From Streptantibioticus silvisoli (lineage in GTDB: Bacteria > Actinomycetota > Actinomycetes > Streptomycetales > Streptomycetaceae), in assembly GCF_027947535.2 (NCBI RefSeq), contig NZ_JAAGKO020000019.1, positions 1 to 64,000 on the forward strand: a stretch of 64,000 bases of DNA, in the 5' to 3' direction. Of this stretch, positions 1,059 through 15,741 are shown piece after piece (position 1 is the stretch's first letter; the number at the start of each line of letters is the position of its first letter). The notes beneath the pieces were generated by a model. It was given only the letters and a program-made list of their open reading frames with translations. It ran no database searches and was not told the origin of the DNA. Both the position numbers and the translations under genes were made by a program.

Positions 1059-2264
1059 ATGCCGCAGAACCCGCGGACCGACGGGCAGCCCGACGAGCGG
1101 ATCGACGGACAGGCCGACGAGCAGGCAGATGAACGGACCGACGAGCGGATCGACGGACAAACCGACAGACAGACCGACGAGCGGGCCGATGAACGGACCG
1201 GCGAGGTGTGGATCCTGGGCGCGACGGGCCGGATCGGCCGTGCCGTCGCCGCGCGCCTCGTGGCGCGCGGACGCACTCCGGTGCTGGTCGGACGCGACCG
1301 GGAGCGCCTGCGCGGGGCCGCGGCGGATCTCGGCCGGGGCGACGACGTGCGGATCGTCGTCGCCGACACGGCGGAACGCGTCGCCGCCGAGATCACGCGC
1401 CGCCGGCCCGGCGTGGTCGTCAACACCATCGGCGACTACGCCGCGACGGCCACGACGATCGCCCGTGCCTGCATGCCGGGCGGGCACTACGTGGACCTGG
1501 CCGCCGACCTGGCCGCCGTCCCCCGGTTGCTCGGCCTGCACGACGAGGCGACCGCCGCGGGCAGCACGCTCGTGACCGGCGCGGGATTCGGTGTCCTGGC
1601 GACGGAGGCCGTCGTGGCGAGGCTGTGCGAAGGCCGGCCCACCCCGCGCGAGGTACGCGTCGACGCGCTGTCCTCGGTGGCCACCGAAGCCGGGACCATG
1701 GGCGCCGCCTTCGCCGGTTCCGTCGTCGGCGCGCTGACCACCGGCGGGCGCCGCTACGACAACGGACGCCTGGTCAGGACCCGGCTCGGCGCGAACCCGC
1801 GAGAGGTCACCCTCCCCGACGGGCAGCGCGTGAAGTCCGCCGGCGCCCCCTCGGCCGAACTCGTCGCCGCCCGGCGGGCCAGCGGAGCGCCGTCCGTCAC
1901 CGTCACCTCCGCACTGATCCCCACCTCGCCCGCGGTACGCGCCGCACTGCCGGTGCTCGGGCTGCTGCTGACGGTTCCCGCGCTGCGGCGCCGGGCGGTC
2001 CGCCGGCTGGCCGGCACCCCTTTCGAAGCCGCGCCCCGGCCGCGCCGGCACTCCTGGGGACACGCCGTCGTGACCTGGCCCGACGGCACGAGCCGCGAGG
2101 GGTGGCTGCGCGCGGCGGACGGCATGGACTACACCGCCGACGTCGTCACGGAGACCGCCCTGCGCCTGGCCGGTGGCGAGGCCCGCCCCGGCGCGTACAC
2201 CCCGACCGCCGCGTTCGGCCCCGACCTCGCCGAGGCGGCCGGGGGAGAGTTCCTCCTGGACTGA
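1059..2264 (+). CDS. Saccharopine-dehydrogenase-like NAD(P)-binding oxidoreductase
   Basis: The protein has 401 residues. After an odd N-terminus, a Rossmann fold begins at about residue 49 with VWILGATGRIGRAVAARLVA (GxTGxxG dinucleotide motif). VVNTIGDYA, GGHYVDLAADL and TGAGFGVLATEAV follow as in saccharopine-dehydrogenase-like and trans-acting enoyl-reductase-like proteins, and the C-terminal half is the usual alpha/beta substrate domain. Residues 5-47 are a low-complexity repeat of units such as TDERIDGQ and ADEQADER, absent from typical relatives. The ATG at 1059 follows GGCGGAAAGGA at good spacing; a later in-frame start close to the Rossmann fold is possible. It is divergent from, and probably repressed by, the TetR regulator. 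Substrate unknown. Confidence 0.8.
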   Translation: MPQNPRTDGQPDERIDGQADEQADERTDERIDGQTDRQTDERADERTGEVWILGATGRIGRAVAARLVARGRTPVLVGRDRERLRGAAADLGRGDDVRIVVADTAERVAAEITRRRPGVVVNTIGDYAATATTIARACMPGGHYVDLAADLAAVPRLLGLHDEATAAGSTLVTGAGFGVLATEAVVARLCEGRPTPREVRVDALSSVATEAGTMGAAFAGSVVGALTTGGRRYDNGRLVRTRLGANPREVTLPDGQRVKSAGAPSAELVAARRASGAPSVTVTSALIPTSPAVRAALPVLGLLLTVPALRRRAVRRLAGTPFEAAPRPRRHSWGHAVVTWPDGTSREGWLRAADGMDYTADVVTETALRLAGGEARPGAYTPTAAFGPDLAEAAGGEFLLD

Positions 2265-2275
2265 GGGGGCTCGGG

Positions 2276-2396
2276 GCGGAGGCGTCTCGGGGCGGAGGGC
2301 GCCTGGGCGGAGGCGTCTCGGGCGGAGGGCGCGATCCCGCGCCGGTGCGAACGCTGCGTACGGGGGCGGTGCGAGCGCTGCGTACGGGGCCGGTGC
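2276..2396. repeat. Short imperfect tandem repeats in an intergenic region
   Basis: GGCGGAGGCGTCTCGGG units occur twice, each followed by CGGAGGGCGC. Then GTGCGAACGCTGCGTACGGG and GTGCGAGCGCTGCGTACGGG occur as neighbouring copies. The stretch lies between the oxidoreductase stop and an MFS remnant. No gene is seen. Confidence 0.55.
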
Positions 2397-3041
2397 TCAG
2401 CTCGTCACGGGCACGCGGCGTACCAGCACGGCCAGCAGGGCCGCGAGCACGCACATGGCGCTGAGCACGAGCCACACCGAGGTGTACGAGCCGGACGCCT
2501 CCCGGGCCAGCGCGCCGACGAAGGCGGACGTGCCGGCCCCGAGCTGGTGGGCGACGTTGGTCCAGCCGAAGACGATGGGGCCGTCCTCGCGGTAGCGCAT
2601 CCGGCACAAGGCGATCACCGGCGGCACGGTGGCCATGTCCACCAGGCCGTAGACGATCACGAAGGCGATGACGGACGGCCCGACCGTCGTCGCGAGCACG
2701 CCGGGCAGCAGGATCAGCGTGACCGCGCGCACGCCGAAGTAGACGGTCAGCAGCCGCCGGGGATCGAAGCGGTCGGTGAGCCAGCCGGAGGCGAGCGCCC
2801 CGACGGTGGAGAAGACGCCGATGAGCGACAGCAGCGAGGCCGCGACGGTGGCCGGCATGTGGTGGTCGCTCGCCGCCGGGACGAAGTTGCTCCACATGAT
2901 GCCGTTGGTCGACGCGCCGCAGACCACGAACATCCCGGCCAGCAGCCAGAACATGCCGGTCCTGGCCGCGCCGGACAGTACCCGTACGGTGCGGATCGCG
3001 GCGCCGGTCTCGGGGGCCGGCTTGGGGACGAACCCGGGCAC
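2397..3041 (-). pseudogene. MFS transporter, C-terminal half only
   Basis: About 210 residues remain, with roughly six hydrophobic segments and the MFS loop signature ASGWLTDRFDPRRL. This is the second six-helix half of a roughly 400-residue major facilitator. The first half is missing: immediately upstream (about 3041) the reading continues into a fragment of a different enzyme in another frame. A half transporter is unlikely to work, so this is called a deletion remnant. A start at 3041 (MPGFVPKPAP) exists, but it falls at the junction and is not convincing. The original substrate cannot be told. Confidence 0.7.
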
Positions 3042-3489
3042 GGACCACGTACGGCCCGCAGGCCGCGGTCAGGTAGCGCCCCAGCTCCATGATCAGCCGG
3101 CACCGCGGGTGGCGCCGGGCGAAGTCGCCGACCACCTCCCGCATGCCCTCGCCCAGCCGGGCGAGGTCGGGGTCGCTCTCGCCGTCGAAGTGGGCGACGC
3201 CCAGTCCGCCGCCGACGTCCACGGTCTCCAGCGGGATGCCGAGTTCGCCGGCCAGCCGCTCGGCGGCGGCCAGGATTCCCGCCGTGTTGCGCACCACGTC
3301 CGCCGGTTCCAGGAAACGGGCGCCCATGTAGGCGTGCACGCCCTGGACGCGGACGTGCCGCAGCCGCGCCACGGCGTCCTTGGAGTCCCGCAGGATCTCC
3401 TCGTCGATGCCGAACTGCCGCGGCTTGCCGCCCATGGCCGGACCGGAGCCCCTGGTGGCGAACGACGGGTTCACCCGCAGGACGACCGG
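3040..3489 (-). pseudogene. Internal fragment of a fold-type III PLP decarboxylase (LysA/BtrK-like)
   Basis: About 150 residues read in one frame. Recognisable segments are VVLRVNPSF, GSGPAMGGKPRQFGID, VQGVHAYMGARFLEPADVV, ETVDVGGGLGV and MELGRYLTAACGPYVV. These belong to alanine-racemase-fold, PLP-dependent decarboxylases of the diaminopimelate, ornithine or acyl-carrier-linked glutamate (BtrK-like) type. The PLP-lysine N-terminus and the C-terminal barrel are both absent. The fragment ends at the junction with the MFS remnant, as if one deletion joined two genes that once lay in the same operon. Family level is fairly sure; substrate is unknown. Confidence 0.65.
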
Positions 3490-3625
3490 GCACCGGCCGC
3501 GTCCCCCCATCGTCGGTTGCCGGCGGCCGGGATGTGTACCGGGGCGGATCGGTGGCATCCGCTTCCTATTGTTCAATGCCGCGTCCGACTCCCCGTCACG
3601 CGAATGAGGAAGCGAAGGTGTCACG

Positions 3626-3832
3626 ATGTCCCAGTCTTCTCCCCGGATGAACACCAGCATCAAGGGCAACGTCATCTCCGGGCTGATCGCCCTGGTCATC
3701 TACGTCGTGATCGCCCTGGCCACCGGTGACAACCCCGGTGCGGCGATCGGGGTCGGGGTCGGATTAGGAGTAGTGGTCTTCCTGCTCTCCTTCGCCATCA
3801 GCCGCACCATCCGCGCGAACCGGGCCCGTTGA
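3626..3832 (+). CDS. Small two-helix membrane protein
   Basis: The protein has 68 residues with two hydrophobic stretches (VISGLIALVIYVVIALATG and AIGVGVGLGVVVFLLSFAIS) around a short GDNPG loop, ending in a basic RTIRANRAR tail that should face the cytoplasm. The ATG at 3626 follows GGAAGCGAAGG. The preceding bases (3570-3600) are the least GC-rich of the area and could hold a promoter. No family is recognised. It is the only intact gene between two decayed stretches. Confidence 0.6.
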   Translation: MSQSSPRMNTSIKGNVISGLIALVIYVVIALATGDNPGAAIGVGVGLGVVVFLLSFAISRTIRANRAR

Positions 3833-4438
3833 GGCGAACCGGCCCGTTGAGCCGGGGTCCGTCCGGCCCCGGCCGACGCGTCGGCACACGGCAGGCGCCG
3901 GGGTGGACGGAGCTGCCCCGGTGCCCGTGTCCGCCGGGGCCGTGGCAGGTGGCGTCGGCCGGGGGTGACGTCGTGCCGCGGGCGTGCGGTTGCTCCTGGC
4001 ATCCTTCGGCGGGCGTCCGTACGATTCCCCGCCCGCCAGGCACGAGGACGACCTTGAGCGGGGTGCGCGGCCGTCGCAGATCGGGTGGTGAATGATGCGG
4101 GATCAACCACCGGGCCGCCAGGGGGCGTAAGGCGGCAGACCGTGCTCCCGGGCAACGGGTTTTCGGCCGACTTCATCGGTTCGTGGAAGGGGCGGCGACG
4201 ACTGAAGGCGTCGAGGCCGAGGCGTCCGTCGCAGGCGGTCCTCACCGTCGATGCGTGAGCAGGGCGCCCGGTCAGCGGCCGAACGTACGACCTGCGAGCA
4301 GCCGAACCCGCCGGCAGCGCCACGGACGCACCGCCGGCCCCTTCGCCGGACGGCCACCGGGGCACCGGCCGAGCACGACGATGCCGTGCCCACCAGGCCC
4401 CGGGCCGCCGCCCCGCCGCCGTCGGTCGGGGCCGGGCC
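3833..4438. other. Gene-free stretch
   Basis: Open frames here are shadows rich in Arg, Pro and Gly with no recognisable domain and no convincing ribosome site. A short repeat built on GGCCCGTTGAG lies just after the small membrane protein stop. The stretch may contain the lost upstream part of the DUF2786 remnant that follows, but I cannot recognise it. Confidence 0.5.
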
Positions 4439-4809
4439 GTCGCCCTCGGTTGCCAGCTCATCCACCTCGGCCAGGACGGCGGCGGGCCGTCCCGCCGCGT
4501 CCACGTCTTCGGGTACGCCAGCGACCTTCAGCGGGTCGAGCTGCTGTACACCTCTCTCCTGCTCCGGTCTCTCCCGCTCCGGATGAGCACGGCCCGGCGG
4601 CTCAGCCCGTCCCGCCGGGCCACGGTGCGCGTGCCTGGCGGCGCTCCTGGCTTCTCGGCTTCGTCGGCCGGGTGGGCGACCGCGTCGAGCAGGCCGAGCG
4701 CGACGCACACGAAGAGGCCGGCGCCGAGACCACCGTCACCGGCCGCGGTGCGGCCGTGGTGCTCGCGGACCGCAGGGCCGTGGTCGAGCGCAACTACCGC
4801 CAGGCGTAG
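4439..4809 (+). pseudogene. DUF2786-family remnant with a frameshift
   Basis: Two frames together give the end of a DUF2786 protein, a family common in Streptomyces with no proven function. The first frame reads VALGCQLIHLGQD and VFGYASDLQRVELLYTSLLL. The second, after a shift between about 4583 and 4640, reads RRSWLLGFVGRVGDRVEQAE and then VVLADRRAVVERNY before TAG at 4807-4809. These match the order of the family's C-terminal half (membership from memory). The N-terminal part is missing or unreadable. Confidence 0.55.
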
Positions 4810-5340
4810 CCGCGTTGCCGAAATGGCGGCCCCACCACCATGGCCGGTGACGGATACGGGTCGGGTTGGGTCGCCGGCAGCCGGGCCGACATCGGCGGCC
4901 GGCGGATCGGCCGTGCCGCCGCCGGGGCCATCGGCGCGTAACCGCACCGCGCCGCGGAGGTGCTCGCCGTGACCTCGGCGGTCGCTCCGGCCGGTTTCTC
5001 CGCGCGCCGCGGAGCGGTGGAGCCGCCGGGCACACCGGAGTGACCGTTCGCCCTCCTTCGCCGCCTGCCCGGTCGCAGACCGGTGGGTCACAGGCTCAAG
5101 GAGTCTCGTCACGTTGACCGTCGGCGGGATCTCGATTTCACGTGCGGGGAAATGCGGGGCAGACGCGGAACGGTGTTCGACGGCAATCGCATGAGTTCGG
5201 CCCCTCGGTCCGGGAGTCACCCGTATGGATGGTTGTCCCGGTTGGGTGAGGCAACGTCGGGCGGATTCATGCGCGATTCGGGAAGATCGTGCATGGGTGC
5301 AGCCGTGCCTGATGGTTTTCTTCGCACGGAAGGACGCGTG
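4810..5340. other. Leader region upstream of the decarboxylase gene
   Basis: No gene is recognised. From about 5100 the base composition becomes less GC-rich, and the frame of the following decarboxylase stays open upstream to 5083 without family-like sequence. The stretch probably holds the promoter of the decarboxylase operon; I could not choose -35/-10 hexamers with confidence. Confidence 0.4.
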
Positions 5341-5343
5341 AGC

Positions 5344-6594
5344 ATGGGCCGGGACGAGAAGTGGTGTGACAGTCATCTCAAGAAATTCCTCAGTGATGTC
5401 CAGGATTGGTATGACCAAAACAAGAACGGTTTTCAGACCGATTTTGACGTGGCGATCAAAGGTGTGAAGCCGTGCCCACCGGAACTACAGGGTGCCCAGA
5501 AGGAAAAGGTCTGGAAGGATTGGCAGCAGGCAACGATCAAAACCCTGATCGACTTCTTCACAGAATGGTGCCAGTGGGGCTGGGGGCAAGGCGTTCACGA
5601 GGGGCTGGACTATATCGAGAAGTTCAGCTGGATCAACTACCACAACGATGCCGGCACGGACTTCATGATCAAGGGCCAGGGCGCTGTCATGCTGGCCGAG
5701 TTCACGAAGCTGCAGGGCGAGCAGATGGACGACGAGCGGTCGGAGAAGCTCGTCCAGCAGTGGATCGAGGAGCTCGGCCCGAAGACGATGGCCGACTACC
5801 GGCCGGGTGACTGGTCGACCTACAACAAGTTCTTCATCAGGGAATTGAAACCCGGCGTGCGGCCGATCGCCGCCCCGCTCGACCCGAGCGTGGTGGTCGC
5901 GCCGACCGACTGCGTCATCAACATGGTTGTCGATGAGCTGACGGATGAAACACTGATCCCGGTCAAGACGGTGGCCATGAACGTCCACACTCTGCTGCAC
6001 GGCTCCCGTTACGCGAAACACTTCACCCACGACAGGGACGGAAATCCCGGTGGTGGTACGGCCGTTTCGTGCATTCTGATGCCCGACACCTATCACCGGT
6101 ACCATGCGCCGGTGGGTGGTGAGGTGGTGGAGGCCCACGATGACATCGCCGGCGCCTACTACGGCATGCAGAACTTCCCCGACCTGGTGAACAACGGGAA
6201 CGTCGGCTACGGGTACGACTACAAGGCATTCTCTGATTTCCGACGCGGGTACGTCATTTTCAAGACCCCGTACCTGGATCACACCGGAAAGCCGGATGGC
6301 GAGGGCTACGTCGGCCTGGTGCCCGTCGGGCTCAACTCGATCGGGTCCGTGCAATTCCTCGACAAGTTCAAGAACGTCAAGCACGGCCAAGCCGTCGCGG
6401 TGGAAAAGGGTGACGAGATCGGCTGCTTCCAGTACGGCGGGTCGCTGAACATCCTGCTGTTCGAGAAGGGGCGCTTCCCCGCGCTGCAACTTCTCATGGG
6501 GCAGCGCATCGGCGTCCTGGACGACCCGGGCCGGTCCAAGAAGTACTTCAGCCGGTCGTACCGCGCCCGGTCGTCCCGCACGTCGACCCTCTGA
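5344..6594 (+). CDS. PSD-family pyruvoyl decarboxylase (PsiD-like)
   Basis: About 416 residues. The C-terminal two thirds are the phosphatidylserine-decarboxylase fold: WSTYNKFFIRELKPGVRPIA, then VVAPTDCVIN, then CILMPDTYHRYHAPVGGEVV with the family histidine. FQYGGSLNILLFEKG follows, where the serine of GGS fits the self-cleavage site that makes the pyruvoyl cofactor. The extra N-terminal domain and absence of a membrane segment resemble the soluble PSD-like enzymes that include fungal tryptophan decarboxylase PsiD, so an amino acid is as likely a substrate as phosphatidylserine. The ATG at 5344 has GGAAGGA nine bases upstream; the in-frame GTG at 5338 is an alternative. A serine carboxypeptidase gene follows 29 bp later, probably in one transcript. 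Confidence 0.8.
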   Translation: MGRDEKWCDSHLKKFLSDVQDWYDQNKNGFQTDFDVAIKGVKPCPPELQGAQKEKVWKDWQQATIKTLIDFFTEWCQWGWGQGVHEGLDYIEKFSWINYHNDAGTDFMIKGQGAVMLAEFTKLQGEQMDDERSEKLVQQWIEELGPKTMADYRPGDWSTYNKFFIRELKPGVRPIAAPLDPSVVVAPTDCVINMVVDELTDETLIPVKTVAMNVHTLLHGSRYAKHFTHDRDGNPGGGTAVSCILMPDTYHRYHAPVGGEVVEAHDDIAGAYYGMQNFPDLVNNGNVGYGYDYKAFSDFRRGYVIFKTPYLDHTGKPDGEGYVGLVPVGLNSIGSVQFLDKFKNVKHGQAVAVEKGDEIGCFQYGGSLNILLFEKGRFPALQLLMGQRIGVLDDPGRSKKYFSRSYRARSSRTSTL

Positions 6595-6623
6595 CGCCGA
6601 CCCCCGAACGGAAGGTGAAAGCC

Positions 6624-8084
6624 ATGCCGCGCAGCCCCGTTTACGGCATCCCGGCCAACGTCGCCGGCACACAGCGCATCGGGTTCTACCCCAGAATCCC
6701 GCATCCGGGCGAGGGGGAGGACGACACTCCGAAGACGGTCCGCTCCTACGCCGGGTATGTGGACGTCAACGGCCCGGGACCGGCGAAAAGCCACCTGTTC
6801 TACTGGTTCTTCGAAAGCCAGACCTGCGACCCCCACCGGGAGCCCGCGGAGCAGAAGAAGCTGATCGAGGACACCCCGCTGCTGATCTGGCTCAACGGCG
6901 GCCCCGGGGCTTCCTCCTCGGCGGGCCTCTTCCTGGAGAACGGCCCCCTGCGCATCGCGGGCGACGCCGCCGGGACCATTTCGGTGAGCCCCGACAGCTG
7001 GAACCAGGAAGCGCACGTCATCTACTGGGACCAGCCCGTCGGCACCGGGTACAGCTACTGCGAGACGCCGAAGACCTATGTCCAGGACGAGGGCACCCTC
7101 GCCACGATGTTCTGCGAGGGCCTGGAAAAGTTCTACGCGACGTATCCGGAGTACAAGTCCTGCCCCCTGTACGTCTGCGGCGAGAGCTACGCGGGAAAGT
7201 ACGTGCCGGCGATCGCTCTGGAGATCGCCGAACACGCGGACATCGAACTGGCGGGCATCGCCGTGGGCAACGGCTGGATCAAGCCCGAGCTTTCGGTCAA
7301 GGTGATGATCGACTACGCCTATGCGTCCGGACTCCTCGGTAAAGGGCAGCAGAAGGCCCTGGACACGTTCTACAAGACATTCAAGCGCGTCCTTGAGGAA
7401 GGCGAGAAGGATGCGGACCTTCAAAAACTGAAGCAGGCCACCGACCTCGGCAACGGGCTGGTGAACGCGGTCCTGGCCTGTGGGGGAGACTTCGACGTCT
7501 ACGACGTACGGCGCTGGGACGACCAGTCCGCCGGGGCGTTGAAACCCTATATGGACAGCGAGGATGTCAGGAAGGCCCTGAATGTGCATGATGCGGGCGT
7601 GGGCTGGCAGTTCGCCGACAACTCGGGTCCGGTGGCCGTGGCGCTGAAGGCCGACAACATGGCGGACGCCTCCCAGAAGTACGCCGCAATCATTGACATG
7701 GGCTACAAGGTCCTGCTCTACACAGGGAACTTCGACACCGCCTGCGGATACCGCAGCACCGAGGAGATCCTGGACGCCATCGTCACTCCGCACGACGCGT
7801 GGCATGCGTCCCGCCGACTGATCTGGAAGCAGGCCCAGGGAAACCCGAAGGGCTTCGTTCGCACCCTCAAGACCGATAAGGCGGGCACGTCACCCGGAAA
7901 GAACGTGACACAGGTGGCCATCCCCGACTCCGGACACGAAGTGCCGGCCTACCAGCCGCAGATCGCCCGGGAGATGCTCTACAACTGGCTCTTCGACCGC
8001 CCCTTCTTCGGCCAGGACCCGCAGAGCGTGGTCGAGGGAATCCTGGACAAGGCCAAGAAAGACGCTGCCGACGAAACGGGATGA
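6624..8084 (+). CDS. Serine carboxypeptidase-like protein (peptidase S10)
   Basis: About 486 residues with all S10 landmarks: LLIWLNGGPGASSSAGLF (oxyanion site), SWNQEAHVIYWDQPVGTGYS, CGESYAGKYVPA (nucleophile serine), LLYTGNFDTACG (aspartate) and SGHEVPAYQP (histidine). S10 enzymes are carboxypeptidases in acidic compartments, and their plant relatives (SCPL) work as acyltransferases. They are uncommon in bacteria. No signal peptide is visible at the N-terminus (MPRSPVYGIPANVAG), so it is probably cytoplasmic, unlike most family members. The ATG at 6624 is preferred over the GTG at 6615 because GGAAGG lies eight to nine bases before it. It lies between the decarboxylase and a Cds1-like gene, which suggests a metabolic rather than digestive role. 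Confidence 0.85.
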   Translation: MPRSPVYGIPANVAGTQRIGFYPRIPHPGEGEDDTPKTVRSYAGYVDVNGPGPAKSHLFYWFFESQTCDPHREPAEQKKLIEDTPLLIWLNGGPGASSSAGLFLENGPLRIAGDAAGTISVSPDSWNQEAHVIYWDQPVGTGYSYCETPKTYVQDEGTLATMFCEGLEKFYATYPEYKSCPLYVCGESYAGKYVPAIALEIAEHADIELAGIAVGNGWIKPELSVKVMIDYAYASGLLGKGQQKALDTFYKTFKRVLEEGEKDADLQKLKQATDLGNGLVNAVLACGGDFDVYDVRRWDDQSAGALKPYMDSEDVRKALNVHDAGVGWQFADNSGPVAVALKADNMADASQKYAAIIDMGYKVLLYTGNFDTACGYRSTEEILDAIVTPHDAWHASRRLIWKQAQGNPKGFVRTLKTDKAGTSPGKNVTQVAIPDSGHEVPAYQPQIAREMLYNWLFDRPFFGQDPQSVVEGILDKAKKDAADETG

Positions 8085-8266
8085 GTGCGCCCGTGCACAG
8101 GGCGTGCCCTCCTCCGGCCAGGGGCGGGTTGGCGGCCACCATCGGTGAGCCGCCTTGTACGTAAGCCGTGCGGATGCCGGGTCCGGGCCAATTCGTCCCG
8201 GCGAAGTGGCGTCGGCGCCCGGTGGTGCCCGAGCCGTTTCCCGGTTCCTGGGATTGCGCCGCAAGG

Positions 8267-8431
8267 ATGAACCGTGCACGTCGTCACCTGTCGCATCCCG
8301 CCCTCGCGATGGTGGCGCTGTTAGTCATGACCGGGTGCCGTCCCCTTCTCGCGGGCGGTGAACTGCCGAAGCCGACGGAGGTTGTCGATGAGTGTCACAG
8401 AGCGGGCGAAGGTGCTGGACGGGACCGATGA
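8267..8431 (+). CDS. Possible short lipoprotein overlapping the next gene
   Basis: A 54-residue frame starts MNRARRHLSHPALAMVALLV and reaches MTGCRPLL, a basic n-region, hydrophobic core and lipobox-like Cys at residue 24. Only about 30 residues follow, and its end overlaps the Cds1-like start at 8388 by 44 bp. AAGG touches the ATG, so the ribosome site is poor. It may be the truncated start of a lost lipoprotein gene or chance. Confidence 0.35.
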   Translation: MNRARRHLSHPALAMVALLVMTGCRPLLAGGELPKPTEVVDECHRAGEGAGRDR

Positions 8432-9548
8432 CGACGACCTGTCGGACAGGTACCGGGACGAACGCGACTGGGTGGCCGGGCGCATCGAACTCATCCGCGG
8501 CCTCCCCCACGTGGAGACACCGCTGATCGAAGTCCCGCTGCCCGCCAAGCTCGACGGGCTGCGGCTGTGCGTCAAGAACGAGTCCGTCCACCCTTCGGGC
8601 AGCCACAAGCACCGCCTGGCCGAGGCGCTGTTCACCAACGCACTCGCCAGTGGGTGGCTGCGCAGCGAAGGGCCCGTGGTCGAGGCGTCCAGCGGTTCCA
8701 CGGCCATCTCCGAGGCGTGGTTCTGCCAGCAGCTCGGCCTGGCGTTCGCCGCGGTGGTGCCCAGCGGTACGGCCAAGGAGAAGAAGGACGCCATCCGCGA
8801 TCTCAACGGCAACGTGGTCGAGGCGCCGCCGGGCGCGGACCTCTGCGAACACGCCCGGCAGTACGCGCTGAAGGTCGGCGGCCACTTCATGGACCAGTTC
8901 ACCTACGCGGAGCGGGCCTACGACTGGCACGGCGAGCACGGCCTCGCGCCGGAGCTGCTCGGCGCGGTGGACCCGGACTGGTTCGTGATGGGCGCGGGCA
9001 CCGGCGGCACCGTGACGTCCGTGGGCCGCTACGCCCGCAACACGGGCCGCAAGGTGCGCGTGTGCGTGACCGATCCGGAGAACTCCGCGTTCTTCGCCGG
9101 CTGGCGGGACGACAACCCGAAGGCCACGGACAAGGGCTCGCGGATCGAGGGGATCGGCCGGCCGAGAGTCGAGCCCTCGTTCCTGTTCCCGATGGTCAAC
9201 CGGATGATCCGGGTGTACGACGCGGCGTCGGTGGCGGCCATGCGGGTGGCCGCCGACCACCTGGGCTTCAGGCCCGGCCCCTCGACCGGGACCGGCCTGT
9301 TCGGCGCGCTGCGGATCCTGCACGGCATGCAGGACCGCGGTGAGCGGGGAACGGTCGCCACCCTCATGTGCGACGACGGCTCGCGCTACAACAACGAGTA
9401 CTACAACAACGACTGGTGCGCGGCCCACGGAATCGACTTCGAACCCTGGCTGGACCCCATCACAGAGTTCTTCCAGACCGGTGACTGGCGGCCGCCGACC
9501 ACCTTCGACACCGCTCCCCGGCCGAGCGACACCCTCTGGAACATGTGA
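8388..9548 (+). CDS. Cds1-like PLP enzyme (cysteine desulfhydrase / cysteine synthase family)
   Basis: About 386 residues of the cysteine-synthase fold. LCVKNESVHPSGSHKHRLAE carries the PLP lysine (SHKHR), VEASSGSTAISEAWF the cofactor phosphate loop, FVMGAGTGGTVTSVGRYAR the glycine loop, and VCVTDPENSAFFAGW, GSRIEGIGRPRVEPSF and CDDGSRYNNEYY follow. This pattern closely matches mycobacterial Cds1, which splits L-cysteine to sulfide, ammonia and pyruvate, more than CysK or CysM. The ATG at 8388 is chosen because GGAGG sits six bases before it; the longer frame from 8358 has no ribosome site. It is co-directional with the decarboxylase and S10 genes, separated by about 300 bp, so possibly the same unit. 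Confidence 0.8.
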   Translation: MSVTERAKVLDGTDDDDLSDRYRDERDWVAGRIELIRGLPHVETPLIEVPLPAKLDGLRLCVKNESVHPSGSHKHRLAEALFTNALASGWLRSEGPVVEASSGSTAISEAWFCQQLGLAFAAVVPSGTAKEKKDAIRDLNGNVVEAPPGADLCEHARQYALKVGGHFMDQFTYAERAYDWHGEHGLAPELLGAVDPDWFVMGAGTGGTVTSVGRYARNTGRKVRVCVTDPENSAFFAGWRDDNPKATDKGSRIEGIGRPRVEPSFLFPMVNRMIRVYDAASVAAMRVAADHLGFRPGPSTGTGLFGALRILHGMQDRGERGTVATLMCDDGSRYNNEYYNNDWCAAHGIDFEPWLDPITEFFQTGDWRPPTTFDTAPRPSDTLWNM

Positions 9549-9582
9549 CTCCGTCGCCACCTGCGGAAGGACCGCTCACCCC

Positions 9583-9930
9583 ATGAACCGCTTGCGCGCC
9601 CTCGGACACCGTGCGGCGACCACGAGTGCGGCCCTCCTCACCGGCGCCGCCGTGCTGGCCGCTCCCACCGCCGCACACGCCGCCGACCAGGAGCCCGTCT
9701 ACACCTGCCAGTTCGTCCTGGCCGACTCGATCAACCGCGTCGCGGGAGAGGACTGCACCGGTGGCCCCGCCGGCTACGAGGGCGCCGGCGACATCAGGAC
9801 GGCCGGCAACGACACCGTGTGGAAGTGCGCCCTGCTCGGCAGCGCCAACGACACCGCCCGCCCGGGCAGGCTCACCGTCGTCGGCCTCGTCGGCTGCGAA
9901 CAGCCCGGCGGCGACGTGGTGTCCGGGTAG
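9583..9930 (+). CDS. Small secreted protein of unknown function
   Basis: The protein has 115 residues. A classical Sec signal (MNRLRALGHRAATTSAALLT, hydrophobic core, AHA-AD cleavage near residue 34) precedes a mature domain of about 80 residues with four cysteines (YTCQF, EDCTGG, WKCALL, VGCEQP), enough for two disulfides. GGAAGGA lies 11 bases before the ATG. The gene begins 34 bp after the Cds1-like stop and could share its transcript. I do not recognise the family. Confidence 0.65.
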   Translation: MNRLRALGHRAATTSAALLTGAAVLAAPTAAHAADQEPVYTCQFVLADSINRVAGEDCTGGPAGYEGAGDIRTAGNDTVWKCALLGSANDTARPGRLTVVGLVGCEQPGGDVVSG

Positions 9931-10317
9931 GACTGGGGGCAGGGGGCGATTGCCCACCCGGCCCGGCCTCCTCGGGGAGCGGTATCTGCGGGCCCTTCGT
10001 CATGCGCTGTGCTCCAGTTGCTACGCGAACCTGGCCGCGGGGGAAGTGCGCGGGGGCGGTCCGGACCGTGCGTTGCTCCGGCGCGGTGAGATTCGGTCGA
10101 CTGGGGCGTGGGGGCCGGAGGGGTTCGAGGAGGCTGTTGTCCGTGGGGTACGGCCGGCTACGGCCGCATGCCGCTGGTGCCGGTGAATTCGCAGGCCCGG
10201 TAGTCGGTGGCGCTCGCGGTCGGAGGTGAGCCAACCGCAGTGAAATGACCCTCCTGGCGCTCCCGGAGTTTCCGCTTTCCTTTGTGACCGGTCACGGAGA
10301 AGAATCGTCCGGAACTG
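9931..10317. other. Gene-free stretch
   Basis: GC-rich sequence with frames on both strands but no signal peptide, domain or good ribosome site. It lies between the tail of the secreted-protein gene and the convergent Uma2 gene and may hold their terminators. I see no clear stem-loop with a U-run. Confidence 0.4.
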
Positions 10318-10884: not shown

Positions 10885-12291
10885 GGCACACCTCCTTCGA
10901 GGATGCTCGTTGGTTCTGTGCTGCTCGGCTCAGCGTACTGTCCTGCGTCGTCAGGACACCCGCTTTGGAGGGGAACGTCCACGCCCGGGTGGACGGCCCG
11001 TGGGCTTCGTCCGTCGCGTCGTCGAAGTGGAGGTGCGGAGGCTTCCCATCTCCGCGCCCTGCGGTGCGGGAGGCTGCACAACATGAACCGCCTGCGCCGA
11101 GCCCGACTACCTCATGCAGGTGGCGGAGGACCCCGATGGTTCCCGGCGCATGCCCTCGCCCGTCGCCGAGATCGTCCGGGCCGCATCCGGGTGCTCGGCG
11201 AGTGACGTGGGCCTGGGAGTGCCTCCCCCTGCGAGGAACAGGTGATGGGTGGTGCGCCGCCGGCCTTCGTCTGCGGAGTCGAGAAGGGGGCCGACGAGTT
11301 GGTTCGAACTGCGGAAGCCCTCTATCTCGACGGGACCTCGTACCGGGGTGAGATCGCCAGGAGCAAGACCGCCGATGTCCCTTGGGCGGCATGTTCGCGC
11401 CCGACAGCGAGATCGGCCTTCGTGGGCAGCTGAGGGACCCGCCGGCACGGGCGGTGGCGCGGGCTACGCCCAAGACGTCACTACGCCCCTGACGGCCGTG
11501 TCCAGCAGGGAGACGATCGGCTCCGTATCCGCGGCCGACGAGGCCTCGGGTACCCGTCCGGCCGCGTGAAGAGGTGGCCGTCGTTCTGCCGGTCCGGTCC
11601 GGCACTCTGCCTCTCCTCGGCCTGACGCCGACGGTGTGCGTGCAGGAAGGCGACGCGGGAGTTCGGCAAGGCGTTGCGCCTCTGGGGCCGCGATCCAGGA
11701 AATCGCATGAAGTCCGCTGAGGTGTGGGGCGTAAGGGTGTTCGCGCCGGAGGCGTCCTTGGTCCCGGTGCAGGCGCAGAGGATTCGCCCGAGGCGGTCAT
11801 TTCGCTCATCAGGTGCTACTGCCGTGTCCGGGAGGCGCCGAGGATCGTACAGACCCGTGCCAGGCGGCGGGTGGCAATCCGCGGACCAGCATGGAAGACG
11901 GTCAAGGGGTTGCGCTCACGGACACCTGCGGCCTGCACGGGCAGGGCTTCACCGCGCCGGCCCGGCCTGCCCGATCACCCGTCGCCCCGGGGCGCGGAAG
12001 GGTGGATCCATGCTCTGCCACGGGTGGCGGAGTCGCTTCCCGGTATGCCCGGGTCGCTTCCCCCGGCCACCGGTGAGTGCTGGTTGGCGGCGCGGGGGCC
12101 GCCGGCGTGGTGGGTTCGAGCGAGGCGCTCATTCGGATGACCCGATCCCTCTGATCGGGCAGGCGTGGCGCGAAAGCGAGGCGAGAAGTCGCGTTCGCAT
12201 ATATGAATTGTGGTCGCCAGCGTGAACTACTGGTAACGATAAGCGTGTCCTCGCGACGGCGTCAATGCCCCGCGGTTCCGAAACCCCCCCT
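10885..12291. other. 1.4 kb without a supportable gene
   Basis: Frames are short and switch often. Segments such as GADELVRTAEALYLDGTSYR (11299-11358, + strand) look protein-like but cannot be extended, so they may be remnants of decayed genes. The last part, about 12190-12290, is less GC-rich and leads into the tandem repeats before the chitinase gene. No RNA gene was recognised. Confidence 0.4.
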
Positions 12292-12426
12292 CGCCGCACG
12301 GGACGGGCAACCTCGTCGCACGGGGACGCGCAACCTCGTCGCACAGGACGGGCAACGGCGACGCACGGGACGGGCAACCTCGCCGCACGGGACGCGCAAC
12401 CTCGTCGCAATTGGACCCGCAACGGC
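12292..12426. repeat. About six tandem copies of a ~22 bp unit upstream of the chitinase gene
   Basis: The unit is close to CGTCGCACGGGACGCGCAACCT. Copies start at about 12292, 12314, 12337, 12359, 12381 and 12403, with variation mainly in the last three bases (CCT or CGG) and in GGGC/GCGC. They lie 175 bp before the chitinase ATG. Adjacent copies without unique spacers rule out a CRISPR array. Confidence 0.75.
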
Positions 12427-12600
12427 GACGGCCGAATCTGACACGACGTCTTGACGGTTCACGCCGGGGGCAACTAACTTCCGAGCACGGTCGTCAGGAA
12501 AGCTTCCTAACCGTCCCTGTGTGCGAGAACCGGGGGCGGCCGCGCATCCTCCAGTCCGACCTGCAGCCGGACCGATCCGGCCAGAATCTGAAGGCTTCTC

Positions 12601-15600
12601 ATGAGATCACTCATGCCAACACGGAAGCCGGGCGGCCGCCGCTTCGGCATCCGCACGTTGCTCCTCGCCGGAGCCACGCTGCTGGCGTCCGCCGGCCTCG
12701 CCGTCACGACGCCGGGCAGCGCGTCCGCTGCCACCGACACCGCTCTTCCCGCGCACGTTTTCGCGCCCTACTGGGAGTCCTACAGCGGGGACAACGCCCT
12801 GACGGTCTCGCAGCAGTCGGGATCGAAGTACCTCACCGCGGCGTTCATCCAGACCGCTGGCGCCGGCTCGTGCACGGCGTACTGGGACGGGGACACCAGC
12901 CAGCCGATCTCCTCGTCCACCTTCGGCAGCCAGATCTCCTCGATCCAGGCGGCCGGCGGCAACGTGATCCCGTCCTTCGGCGGCTACACGGCCGACACCA
13001 CGGGCACTGACATCGCCGACAGTTGCACAAGCGTCAGCGCGATCGCGTCCGTGTACGAGAACGTCATCACCACCTACAACGTGCCGCGCATCGACCTGGA
13101 CATCGAGCAGGACTCGCTGACTGACACGGCCGGCTACGAGCGGCGCAACGAGGCGGTCGCCGAAGTCGAGTCGTGGGCCGCGGCCAACGGGCGCACGATC
13201 CAGTTCTCGTACACGCTCCCGTCCGACACCACCGGCCTTGACTCCACCGAGCTGCCCATCCTGCGGAACGCCGTCTCGGTCGGCGCCAAGGTCGGCGTGG
13301 TCAACCTGATGACCTTCGACTACTACACCGGCACCTCGCACGAGATGGCCACCGCGACCGAGACCGCGGCGTCAGGCCTGGAGAGCCAGCTCGCCTCGCT
13401 CTACCCCTCCGACGCCGCCTCGCAGCTGTGGGCCATGATCGGCGTGACCGAAATGCCTGGCATCGACGACTACGGTTCGGGCGAAACCTTCACCGAGGCC
13501 GACGCCTCAAAGGTGCTGAGCTGGGCTGGGAGCGAGGGCATCAACACCCTGTCTCTCTGGGCGATCGAACGGGACAACGGCGGCTGCGTCGGCACGGCCG
13601 GATCGGACAGCTGCTCCGGCATCTCCCAGCCGACCTGGTACTTCGCCAACGCGTTCGAACCGTTCACCACTTCCTCGGGCGGCTCCACGCCGGCAGGCAC
13701 GATCGTCGGGAACCCGTCGGGCCTGTGCCTGGGCGACAGCGGCGGATCGACCACGCTGAAGACGACCGCGGACATCGACACCTGTGACGGTTCCGCCGCT
13801 CAGAGTTGGACCGCGTCCGGCGGCACGCTCGTCGACGGCAACGGCCTGTGCCTGAGCGTCACCGGCGCCTCCACGGCGCCGAAGGCGACCGCCGAGGTCT
13901 ATACCTGCAACGGCAGCGTCAGCGAGAACTGGACGGTCGAGTCGAACGGCACCATCGTCAATGACAACTCGGGCCTGTGTCTGAGCGTGGTCGGCAGCGC
14001 CACCACCACCGGCTCGATCGCCGACATCTACACCTGCAACGGCAGCGCCAGCGAGAACTGGACGATCTCGACCGGCTCGTCACCGCCCTCAACGCCAACC
14101 TTCGGCTCGAACGTGTACGTGTTCAACACCTCAATGTCGACCACCACGATCCAGAACGACATCAACGCCGTGTACGCGACGCAGAAATCAAACCAGTTCG
14201 GCACCCAGCGCTACGAGCTGATGTTCGAACCGGGGACGTACGACGTCACCGTCCCGGTCGGCTTCTACACCGAGGTCGTCGGACTCGGTCAGAAGCCGAC
14301 GCAGACCGTGATCACCGGTGGTGGGATCTACACGGACGCGAGCTGGAACGGCGGCAACGCCACCGAGAACTTCTGGCGCGACGTCGAGAACATCACCATC
14401 GACCCGTCCTCCGGCAGCACCGAATGGGCCGCGTCCCAGGCCGCGCCGCTGCGCCGGGTGCAGATCGACGGCAAAGCCGTGCTCGCCGACAACAACGGCT
14501 GGGCCTCGGGCGGCTTCATCGCCGACTCGGTCGTCACCGGCCAGGTCAACGCCGAGACCCAGCAGCAGTACATCTCCCGCAACGACCAGTACGGCAGCTG
14601 GACGGGCTCGAACTGGAACATGGTGTTCGTCGGCGACACCGGCGTTCCCGGAACGAGCTTCCCGAACCCGCCGGACACCACGGTCAGCAACACCCCGGCC
14701 GTTGCCGAGAAACCGTACGTCTACGTCGACTCCTCCGGGAACTGGGACGTGTTCGTGCCCTCCGACGAAAGCAACTCGCAGGGCACGACATGGGCGAACG
14801 GCAACACGCCGGGGACGTCGCTGCCGCTGAGCGACTTCTTCATCGCGACCCCGAGCGACACCGTCAGCGACATCAACAACGCGCTCGCGGCCGGAAAGGA
14901 CCTGCTGTTCACCCCGGGCGTCTACCAGATCGACGGCACCATCCAGGTCAACAACCCGGACACCGTGGTGCTCGGCCTCGGTCTGGCGACGCTGGTGTCG
15001 AACGGCGGCAACACGGTCCTGTCGACCGCGGATGTCAACGGCATCCGTATCGGGGGGCTGCTCTTCGACGCCGGAACGACGAACTCCGCCGAACTCGTGC
15101 AGATCGGCCCGGCCGGCTCCTCCGCCGACCACTCGGCCGACCCGACGATCCTGTCCGACGTCTTCGCCCGGATCGGCGGCGCAACGGTCGGGCAGGCATC
15201 GGAATCACTGGTGATCAACAGCAACAACGTCATCGGTGACGACCTGTGGCTCTGGCGCGCCGACCACGGCAACTCCGGAACCGTCGGCTGGACCACCAAC
15301 GTCGCTCCCAACGGCCTCGCGGTCAACGGCGCGAACGTCACCATCTACGGACTCGCCGTCGAGCACTACCAGCACATCCAGACCCAGTGGAACGGCAACG
15401 GAGGAGCCGTCTACTTCTACCAGAGCGAGATGCCCTACGACCCGCCGAACCAAGCGTCCTGGATGAACGGCTCGGCGGACGGCTACGCCTCGCTCAACGT
15501 CCACTCCACCGTCACCGACTTCCAGGCATACGGCCTCGGCGTCTACTGCCTGTTCACGGACACCAGTATCCAGTCCGCCAACGCGATCACCGCACCGAAC

Positions 15601-15741
15601 ACATCGGGTGTGCAGTTCCACTCGATGGTGACGATCTCGCTGGGCAACGGCGCGGGTGGCATCATCGACAACATCATCAACGGCACCGGCGGCCGGGTGG
15701 GCCCCGGTACGACCAAGGAGGACCTCGCCAGCTACAACTGA
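12601..15741 (+). CDS. Secreted GH18 chitinase - ricin-type lectin - beta-helix protein
   Basis: The protein has 1046 residues. A signal peptide covers about residues 1-43 (cleavage near SASA-AT). Residues 45-355 are a GH18 barrel like Streptomyces chitinases: VFAPYWESY, VIPSFGGYTA and the acid motif RIDLDIEQD with catalytic Glu about 169. Residues about 363-490 contain three CBM13-like repeats, each with GLCL and a closing SENWT or AQSWT. Residues 500-1046 form a right-handed beta-helix type region (FEPGTYDVTVPVGFYTEVVG, LFTPGVYQIDGTIQVNN) related to pectate-lyase-like glucanases. The combination suits chitin plus fungal glucan attack, although activity of the C-terminal part is inferred. 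AAGG six bases before the ATG fixes the start. Tandem repeats lie upstream. Confidence 0.85.
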   Translation: MRSLMPTRKPGGRRFGIRTLLLAGATLLASAGLAVTTPGSASAATDTALPAHVFAPYWESYSGDNALTVSQQSGSKYLTAAFIQTAGAGSCTAYWDGDTSQPISSSTFGSQISSIQAAGGNVIPSFGGYTADTTGTDIADSCTSVSAIASVYENVITTYNVPRIDLDIEQDSLTDTAGYERRNEAVAEVESWAAANGRTIQFSYTLPSDTTGLDSTELPILRNAVSVGAKVGVVNLMTFDYYTGTSHEMATATETAASGLESQLASLYPSDAASQLWAMIGVTEMPGIDDYGSGETFTEADASKVLSWAGSEGINTLSLWAIERDNGGCVGTAGSDSCSGISQPTWYFANAFEPFTTSSGGSTPAGTIVGNPSGLCLGDSGGSTTLKTTADIDTCDGSAAQSWTASGGTLVDGNGLCLSVTGASTAPKATAEVYTCNGSVSENWTVESNGTIVNDNSGLCLSVVGSATTTGSIADIYTCNGSASENWTISTGSSPPSTPTFGSNVYVFNTSMSTTTIQNDINAVYATQKSNQFGTQRYELMFEPGTYDVTVPVGFYTEVVGLGQKPTQTVITGGGIYTDASWNGGNATENFWRDVENITIDPSSGSTEWAASQAAPLRRVQIDGKAVLADNNGWASGGFIADSVVTGQVNAETQQQYISRNDQYGSWTGSNWNMVFVGDTGVPGTSFPNPPDTTVSNTPAVAEKPYVYVDSSGNWDVFVPSDESNSQGTTWANGNTPGTSLPLSDFFIATPSDTVSDINNALAAGKDLLFTPGVYQIDGTIQVNNPDTVVLGLGLATLVSNGGNTVLSTADVNGIRIGGLLFDAGTTNSAELVQIGPAGSSADHSADPTILSDVFARIGGATVGQASESLVINSNNVIGDDLWLWRADHGNSGTVGWTTNVAPNGLAVNGANVTIYGLAVEHYQHIQTQWNGNGGAVYFYQSEMPYDPPNQASWMNGSADGYASLNVHSTVTDFQAYGLGVYCLFTDTSIQSANAITAPNTSGVQFHSMVTISLGNGAGGIIDNIINGTGGRVGPGTTKEDLASYN

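Follow-up and report, generated by a model that had tools for sequence, protein, structure and literature searches.

Three intact genes lie side by side in the same direction on the + strand of the window (the whole 64,000-nucleotide stretch analyzed here, from an 8.7-Mb assembly). Their products are a decarboxylase of the phosphatidylserine decarboxylase (PSD) family, a serine carboxypeptidase of the S10 family, and a pyridoxal phosphate (PLP) enzyme resembling the L-cysteine desulfhydrase Cds1, which raises the question of whether these three proteins serve a common route and, if so, on what substrate. All three genes have good ribosome-binding sites and a strong codon-position bias. The decarboxylase gene (PF02666; 5344–6594, + strand; 416 residues; Pfam PS_Dcarbxylase, E 8e-32), for which a GTG at 5338 on the same strand offers an alternative start, is followed by a 29-nt gap (6595–6623, + strand) containing a ribosome-binding site and then by the S10 gene (6624–8084, + strand; 486 residues; Pfam Peptidase_S10, E 1e-83). 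A gap of 303 nt (8085–8387, + strand) precedes the gene for the Cds1-like, fold-type-II PLP enzyme (8388–9548, + strand; 386 residues; Pfam PALP, E 9e-49), which has a less likely start at a GTG at 8358. The small ORF at 9583–9930 is separate from these genes and begins with a stretch resembling an export signal. The S10 gene is probably cotranscribed with the decarboxylase gene, since the gap between them is 29 nt here and 3 to 62 nt, with unchanged gene order, in most relatives; scans for promoters and terminators returned nothing decisive for the limits of the operon.

The surroundings of these genes include some further features. Just upstream of the decarboxylase gene lie a PLP decarboxylase and an MFS transporter that are apparently decayed: the former is a remnant of the LysA/exosortase-associated type on the − strand (2146–3699), with approximately 150 matching residues, and is overlapped in a different frame by the C-terminal half of the transporter (2397–3041). 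On the other side, a gene at 12601–15741 (+ strand) encodes a secreted-looking protein of 1046 residues with GH18 and ricin-B lectin domains, whose long C-terminal region matches no Pfam model.

Bacterial homologs of the decarboxylase are usually annotated as phosphatidylserine decarboxylases, and the window enzyme could accordingly be a soluble decarboxylase of phosphatidylserine, or of another phospholipid, that yields phosphatidylethanolamine. This reading accommodates both its place in the PSD Pfam family and its D-H-S residues. In Escherichia coli PSD, residues D90, H144, and S254 serve both the self-cleavage reaction and decarboxylation; the ligands of the lipid phosphate are Tyr137, a position where Arg is the alternative, and Ser166 (PMC7952604). 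The equivalents of D90, H144, and S254 are kept in 35 of 35 decarboxylase relatives, in which D189, H251, and the G366–S367 pair of the window protein are all conserved; the key residues of the latter further include H254 and the motif YGGSLN. Alignment to G253–S254 of E. coli PSD places the predicted self-cleavage site between G366 and S367 (codons at 6439–6444, + strand, counted from the start at 5344), and cleavage there would give a 50-residue α chain with an N-terminal pyruvoyl group. Comparison supports well the assignment of the protein as a PsiD-type enzyme that processes itself to form a pyruvoyl group, and the fold match described below agrees with the PsiD-like label given in the initial annotation.

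The lipid-binding residues tell a different story. The position of Tyr137 is occupied by Ile or Val, and that of Ser166 by Gly, in 35 of 35 relatives, and the window protein passes none of the cut-offs of the curated NCBIfam PSD equivalogs (best score 80.8 bits versus a cut-off of 371; for TIGR00163, 67.6 versus 111.75). Neither the window copy nor the relatives that were measured have a hydrophobic N-terminal stretch, and a second PSD-family gene elsewhere in the same genome (at C105) also speaks against a lipid role. With the lipid-phosphate residues replaced and a hydrophobic N terminus lacking, phosphatidylserine decarboxylation was set aside as a highly improbable function.

Structural comparison was based on an AlphaFold2 model of moderate confidence (pLDDT 77), in which an N-terminal helical domain (approximately residues 5–165), for which no Pfam domain was found even at lax thresholds, precedes the catalytic domain. 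Over 304 residues, covering model residues 12 to 365, the model aligns with PsiD, the L-tryptophan decarboxylase of Psilocybe (8x4q; Z 22.3, rmsd 3.6; see also 8zia). The match to the arginine decarboxylase of Aspergillus oryzae (9jer; see also 9jf5) is equally extensive (308 residues, Z 21.9, rmsd 3.6), whereas the match to E. coli PSD comprises 215 residues, mainly of the catalytic domain (Z 16.8, rmsd 3.2); the latter enzyme shares the catalytic domain and the self-processing residues but has a different N-terminal domain. The decarboxylases of the matched structures are 17 to 20% identical in sequence to the window protein. PsiD (~17% identity) has the same two-domain chain, retains the D-H-S residues, and is soluble; the window enzyme differs from it in being bacterial and coupled to an S10 protein. 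The A. oryzae enzyme (20% identity) belongs to the PSD family, and its PDB title indicates a free amino acid as the substrate; it is fungal, unlike the window enzyme, and our literature search found no open paper on it. We know of no S10 partner for the A. oryzae decarboxylase. Because the lipid-phosphate residues are replaced and almost all of the chain can be matched in fold to PsiD and the arginine decarboxylase, sequence and model together make a free amino acid, or a similar small α-amino acid, a very likely substrate, in preference to phosphatidylserine.

Turning to the S10 protein, the putative catalytic triad consists of S188, D371, and H438, each kept in 22 of 22 relatives, and the carboxylate-binding residues are N91, E105, and E187 (conserved in 22, 22, and 21 of the 22 relatives, respectively). 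The nucleophile motif is GESYAG or GESYGG in 21 relatives and GQSYGG in one. The triad and the carboxylate-binding residues are shared with cathepsin A, carboxypeptidase Y, and wheat CPD-WII, and a structural model (pLDDT 77, moderate confidence) resembles cathepsin A and carboxypeptidase Y in fold (Z 36–39), the closest being cathepsin A (Z 39, 380 residues aligned). The identification of the protein as a true carboxypeptidase with a complete active site is well supported by these features. It differs from known S10 enzymes in its bacterial operon with a decarboxylase, in the absence of a signal peptide, and in its S1' site, where 21 of 22 proteins have Gln or Glu at the position equivalent to Met398 of carboxypeptidase Y; this substitution is a weak hint that polar or basic C-terminal residues might be preferred. 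A secretion or vacuolar signal is usual, albeit not defining, for the S10 family, whose well-known members are lysosomal, vacuolar, or secreted. Neither a signal peptide nor a hydrophobic N terminus was detected in any of the 12 S10 proteins measured, so these enzymes should be cytosolic. That both the decarboxylase and the S10 protein lack export signals, as noted initially, thus holds.

The initial annotation also suggested that the S10 protein could be an acyltransferase. In such a synthetic role, the acyl-enzyme would be attacked by the amine that the decarboxylase releases, and the product would be an N-acyl amine or peptide amide. Carboxypeptidase Y performs aminolysis, acyltransferases exist among the plant relatives of the family, and the S10 gene directly adjoins that of a predicted amine-forming enzyme in 27 of the 40 loci described below. 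However, both the GESYAG motif and the residues that bind the carboxylate are of the carboxypeptidase type (the nucleophile motif of plant S10 acyltransferases is usually GDSYS), and no conserved gene for a dedicated acyl donor occurs near the pair. Aminolysis is possible, but the residues do not support the acyltransferase assignment, and we consider a synthetic S10 enzyme unlikely.

Conservation of the gene pair was assessed in 395 Streptomycetaceae genomes, the window's own included. Close relatives of the decarboxylase occur in 12 of these (again counting the window's own), one copy being broken, and the intact ones are 53 to 63% identical to the window protein; most have an S10 gene directly 3' on the same strand. 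When searched with the Pfam model for S10, only 11 of the 395 genomes proved to encode an S10 protein of any kind; in 10 of these it adjoins the decarboxylase, and one is a C-terminal remnant. Ten genomes are thus common to both sets (Fisher p 3e-17, ignoring relatedness), and within the Streptomycetaceae, S10 is essentially confined to loci with a decarboxylase partner. A wider scan of 84,980 species genomes yielded 38 decarboxylase loci, which, together with the window and an Embleya locus, make up a set of 40; the databases overlap, some genomes recur from the 395-genome sample, and the samples are not independent. The actinobacterial genera among the scan loci are Streptomyces, Actinomadura, Nocardiopsis, and Streptomonospora, and the remaining loci come from several cyanobacteria, Flavobacteriales, Nitrosomonas, one Pseudomonadota MAG, and one Euryarchaeota MAG. 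S10 adjoins the decarboxylase in 25 of the 30 actinobacterial loci, and the two further cases are the Pseudomonadota (39% identity) and archaeal (44%) MAGs. Streptomyces albireticuli and S. noursei are among the species with the pair. At several loci (L066, L069, and L073), the S10 copy is partial or broken.

Distances among decarboxylases correlate with those among the S10 proteins (r 0.81 for 22 pairs; 0.66 in actinobacteria), and none of 2000 permutations gave a correlation as high. In the decarboxylase tree, S10-bearing members occur in both main clades, which implies that the link is either old, with repeated loss, or has been transferred repeatedly. Most decarboxylases of the deeper clade (cyanobacteria, Flavobacteriales, and Nitrosomonas) and those of five actinobacterial loci have no adjacent S10 gene, indicating that the decarboxylase is able to function in its absence. 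The linkage bears on the possibility that the three genes are adjacent by chance and do not act together. Chance would fit the absence of the Cds1-like gene beside most pairs and the 303-nt gap before it in the window, but the decarboxylase–S10 link is kept across genera and phyla in the face of a family that is otherwise essentially devoid of S10. Chance adjacency is largely refuted for this pair, and as an account of all three genes we give it hardly any weight. The comparative sequence data make it almost certain, in our judgment, that the decarboxylase and the S10 protein form a functional unit.

Some individual loci have peculiarities of their own. In Streptomyces sp. SID3212 (L069, 7707–8365), a block of ~650 bp comprising the last part of the decarboxylase gene and the first part of the S10 gene is inverted as a whole, the pieces being 76 to 90% identical to the window; this is either a real inversion or an assembly error. 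The decarboxylase of L067 is seemingly frame-shifted near its start (~9850–10030), with residues 12 to 45 and those from 65 onward in different frames. Streptomyces sp. MspMP-M5 has two decarboxylase copies (L052 and L057), neither with S10. Directly 5' of the decarboxylase relative in Symploca sp. (L077) is a gene for a PLP-dependent group II amino-acid decarboxylase (3956–5371), and directly 3' of that in a Nitrosomonas MAG (L080) is a second PSD-family gene (11579–13009), whose product has an export-signal-like N terminus.

Clustering of the neighboring genes revealed nothing consistent beyond S10. The minor recurrent partners of the pair are genes for PNPOx-like and Cds1-like proteins; in addition, a GntC-like aminotransferase adjoins it in two loci. 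L045, L059, L061, L066, and Embleya have a PNPOx-like protein (PF12900) next to the pair, and L082 retains a remnant; these proteins fall into two sequence groups ~30% identical to each other. The locus of Embleya sp. NBC_00888 (L135), on a 5.7-Mb linear replicon, has a full four-gene set, in which the decarboxylase and S10 genes are followed by convergent genes for PNPOx-like and Cds1-like proteins; no entry for this locus appears in the PLSDB gene table.

The Cds1-like protein keeps the PLP lysine and the neighboring motif of the mycobacterial L-cysteine desulfhydrase Cds1 (K74, invariant, in S-H-K-H-R or S-L-K-H-R), and Cds1 (NF052478) is its best NCBIfam match. The score of 352 bits nevertheless falls below the cut-off of 600, as do those of other members of its subfamily (347–385), compared with 595 for a partial sequence of a housekeeping relative. 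By this cut-off, the protein is not Cds1 proper. Every sampled genome encodes a Cds1-type or related protein, and these housekeeping proteins are mostly ~45 to 49% identical to the window's copy; the window genome has its own at C86. Members of the rare, divergent subfamily to which the window protein belongs (at least 57% identity to it) were found in few genomes only. They occur in two of the 12 decarboxylase genomes versus two of the 383 others (p 0.005, ignoring relatedness); members without the pair are those of G133 and G300. The standalone gene in G133 (L124, 9065–10231) adjoins a hybrid PKS/NRPS cluster whose domains include a luciferase-like monooxygenase and an aminotransferase.

Five pair loci have an adjoining Cds1-like gene: the window, Embleya, L067, L082, and, as a remnant, L045. 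Its orientation and position vary. Between L067 and L082, the decarboxylases are 86% and the S10 proteins 80% identical, but the Cds1-like proteins, encoded in opposite orientations, only 58%; conversely, the Cds1-like proteins of Embleya and L082 are 93% identical and their decarboxylases only 56%. The gene was thus apparently recruited to the pair more than once, which favors a functional tie in a subset of loci, and we lean toward a functional role for it in this strain. As a core member it was rejected, being absent beside most pairs and also occurring without the pair. Of the linkage first suggested for all three genes, the decarboxylase–S10 part is conserved and the Cds1-like protein is an occasional partner.

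If sulfur metabolism were central, the Cds1-like enzyme would make or cleave a β-substituted alanine (e.g., a cysteine conjugate or cysteate), the S10 enzyme would trim a peptide conjugate upstream, and the decarboxylase would yield a cysteamine- or taurine-like amine. Apart from the apparently repeated recruitment of a rare subfamily distinct from the housekeeping Cds1 of the same genome, this idea draws on the PNPOx-like genes at three of the five Cds1-like loci (one a remnant; p 0.056). It is weakened by the many pair loci, the majority, that have no Cds1-like gene, and by the breadth of fold-type-II PLP enzymes, which act on many substrates; the only pointer to sulfur is the family name. 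We regard a dedicated sulfur route as improbable.

The best explanation overall, to which we would give about an even chance, is a two-gene cytosolic operon serving one small-molecule route. Acting on a small peptide or an amide conjugate in the cytosol, the S10 enzyme would cleave off the C-terminal amino acid, which would form a Schiff base with the pyruvoyl group of the decarboxylase and be released as an amine and CO2. The order of these steps, S10 first and decarboxylase second, is a tentative proposal. Some strains would add the Cds1-like PLP enzyme and a PNPOx-like flavoprotein, which could adapt the substrate or the product, probably by making or processing a β-substituted, possibly sulfur-bearing, substrate. 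In a broader and still more tentative form, the core of S10 and a PsiD-type decarboxylase would belong to a modular actinobacterial pathway, in which Cds1-like and PNPOx-like enzymes are swapped to vary the amine or sulfur-containing product. A literature search, mostly without subscription journals, found no description of the decarboxylase–S10 pair and no described pathway like the one considered here, as the initial annotation had supposed.

To our knowledge, PSD-family decarboxylases that act on free amino acids are known only from fungi. The decarboxylase clade described here spans several phyla and lacks the lipid-binding residues, and misannotation of such proteins is likely to be widespread. 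Its actinobacterial members are tied to the sole S10 carboxypeptidase of the Streptomyces family, and the pair represents a candidate new route of amine formation that is open to testing. It also offers a short marker by which biosynthetic or scavenging clusters of a class not yet on record could be recognized.
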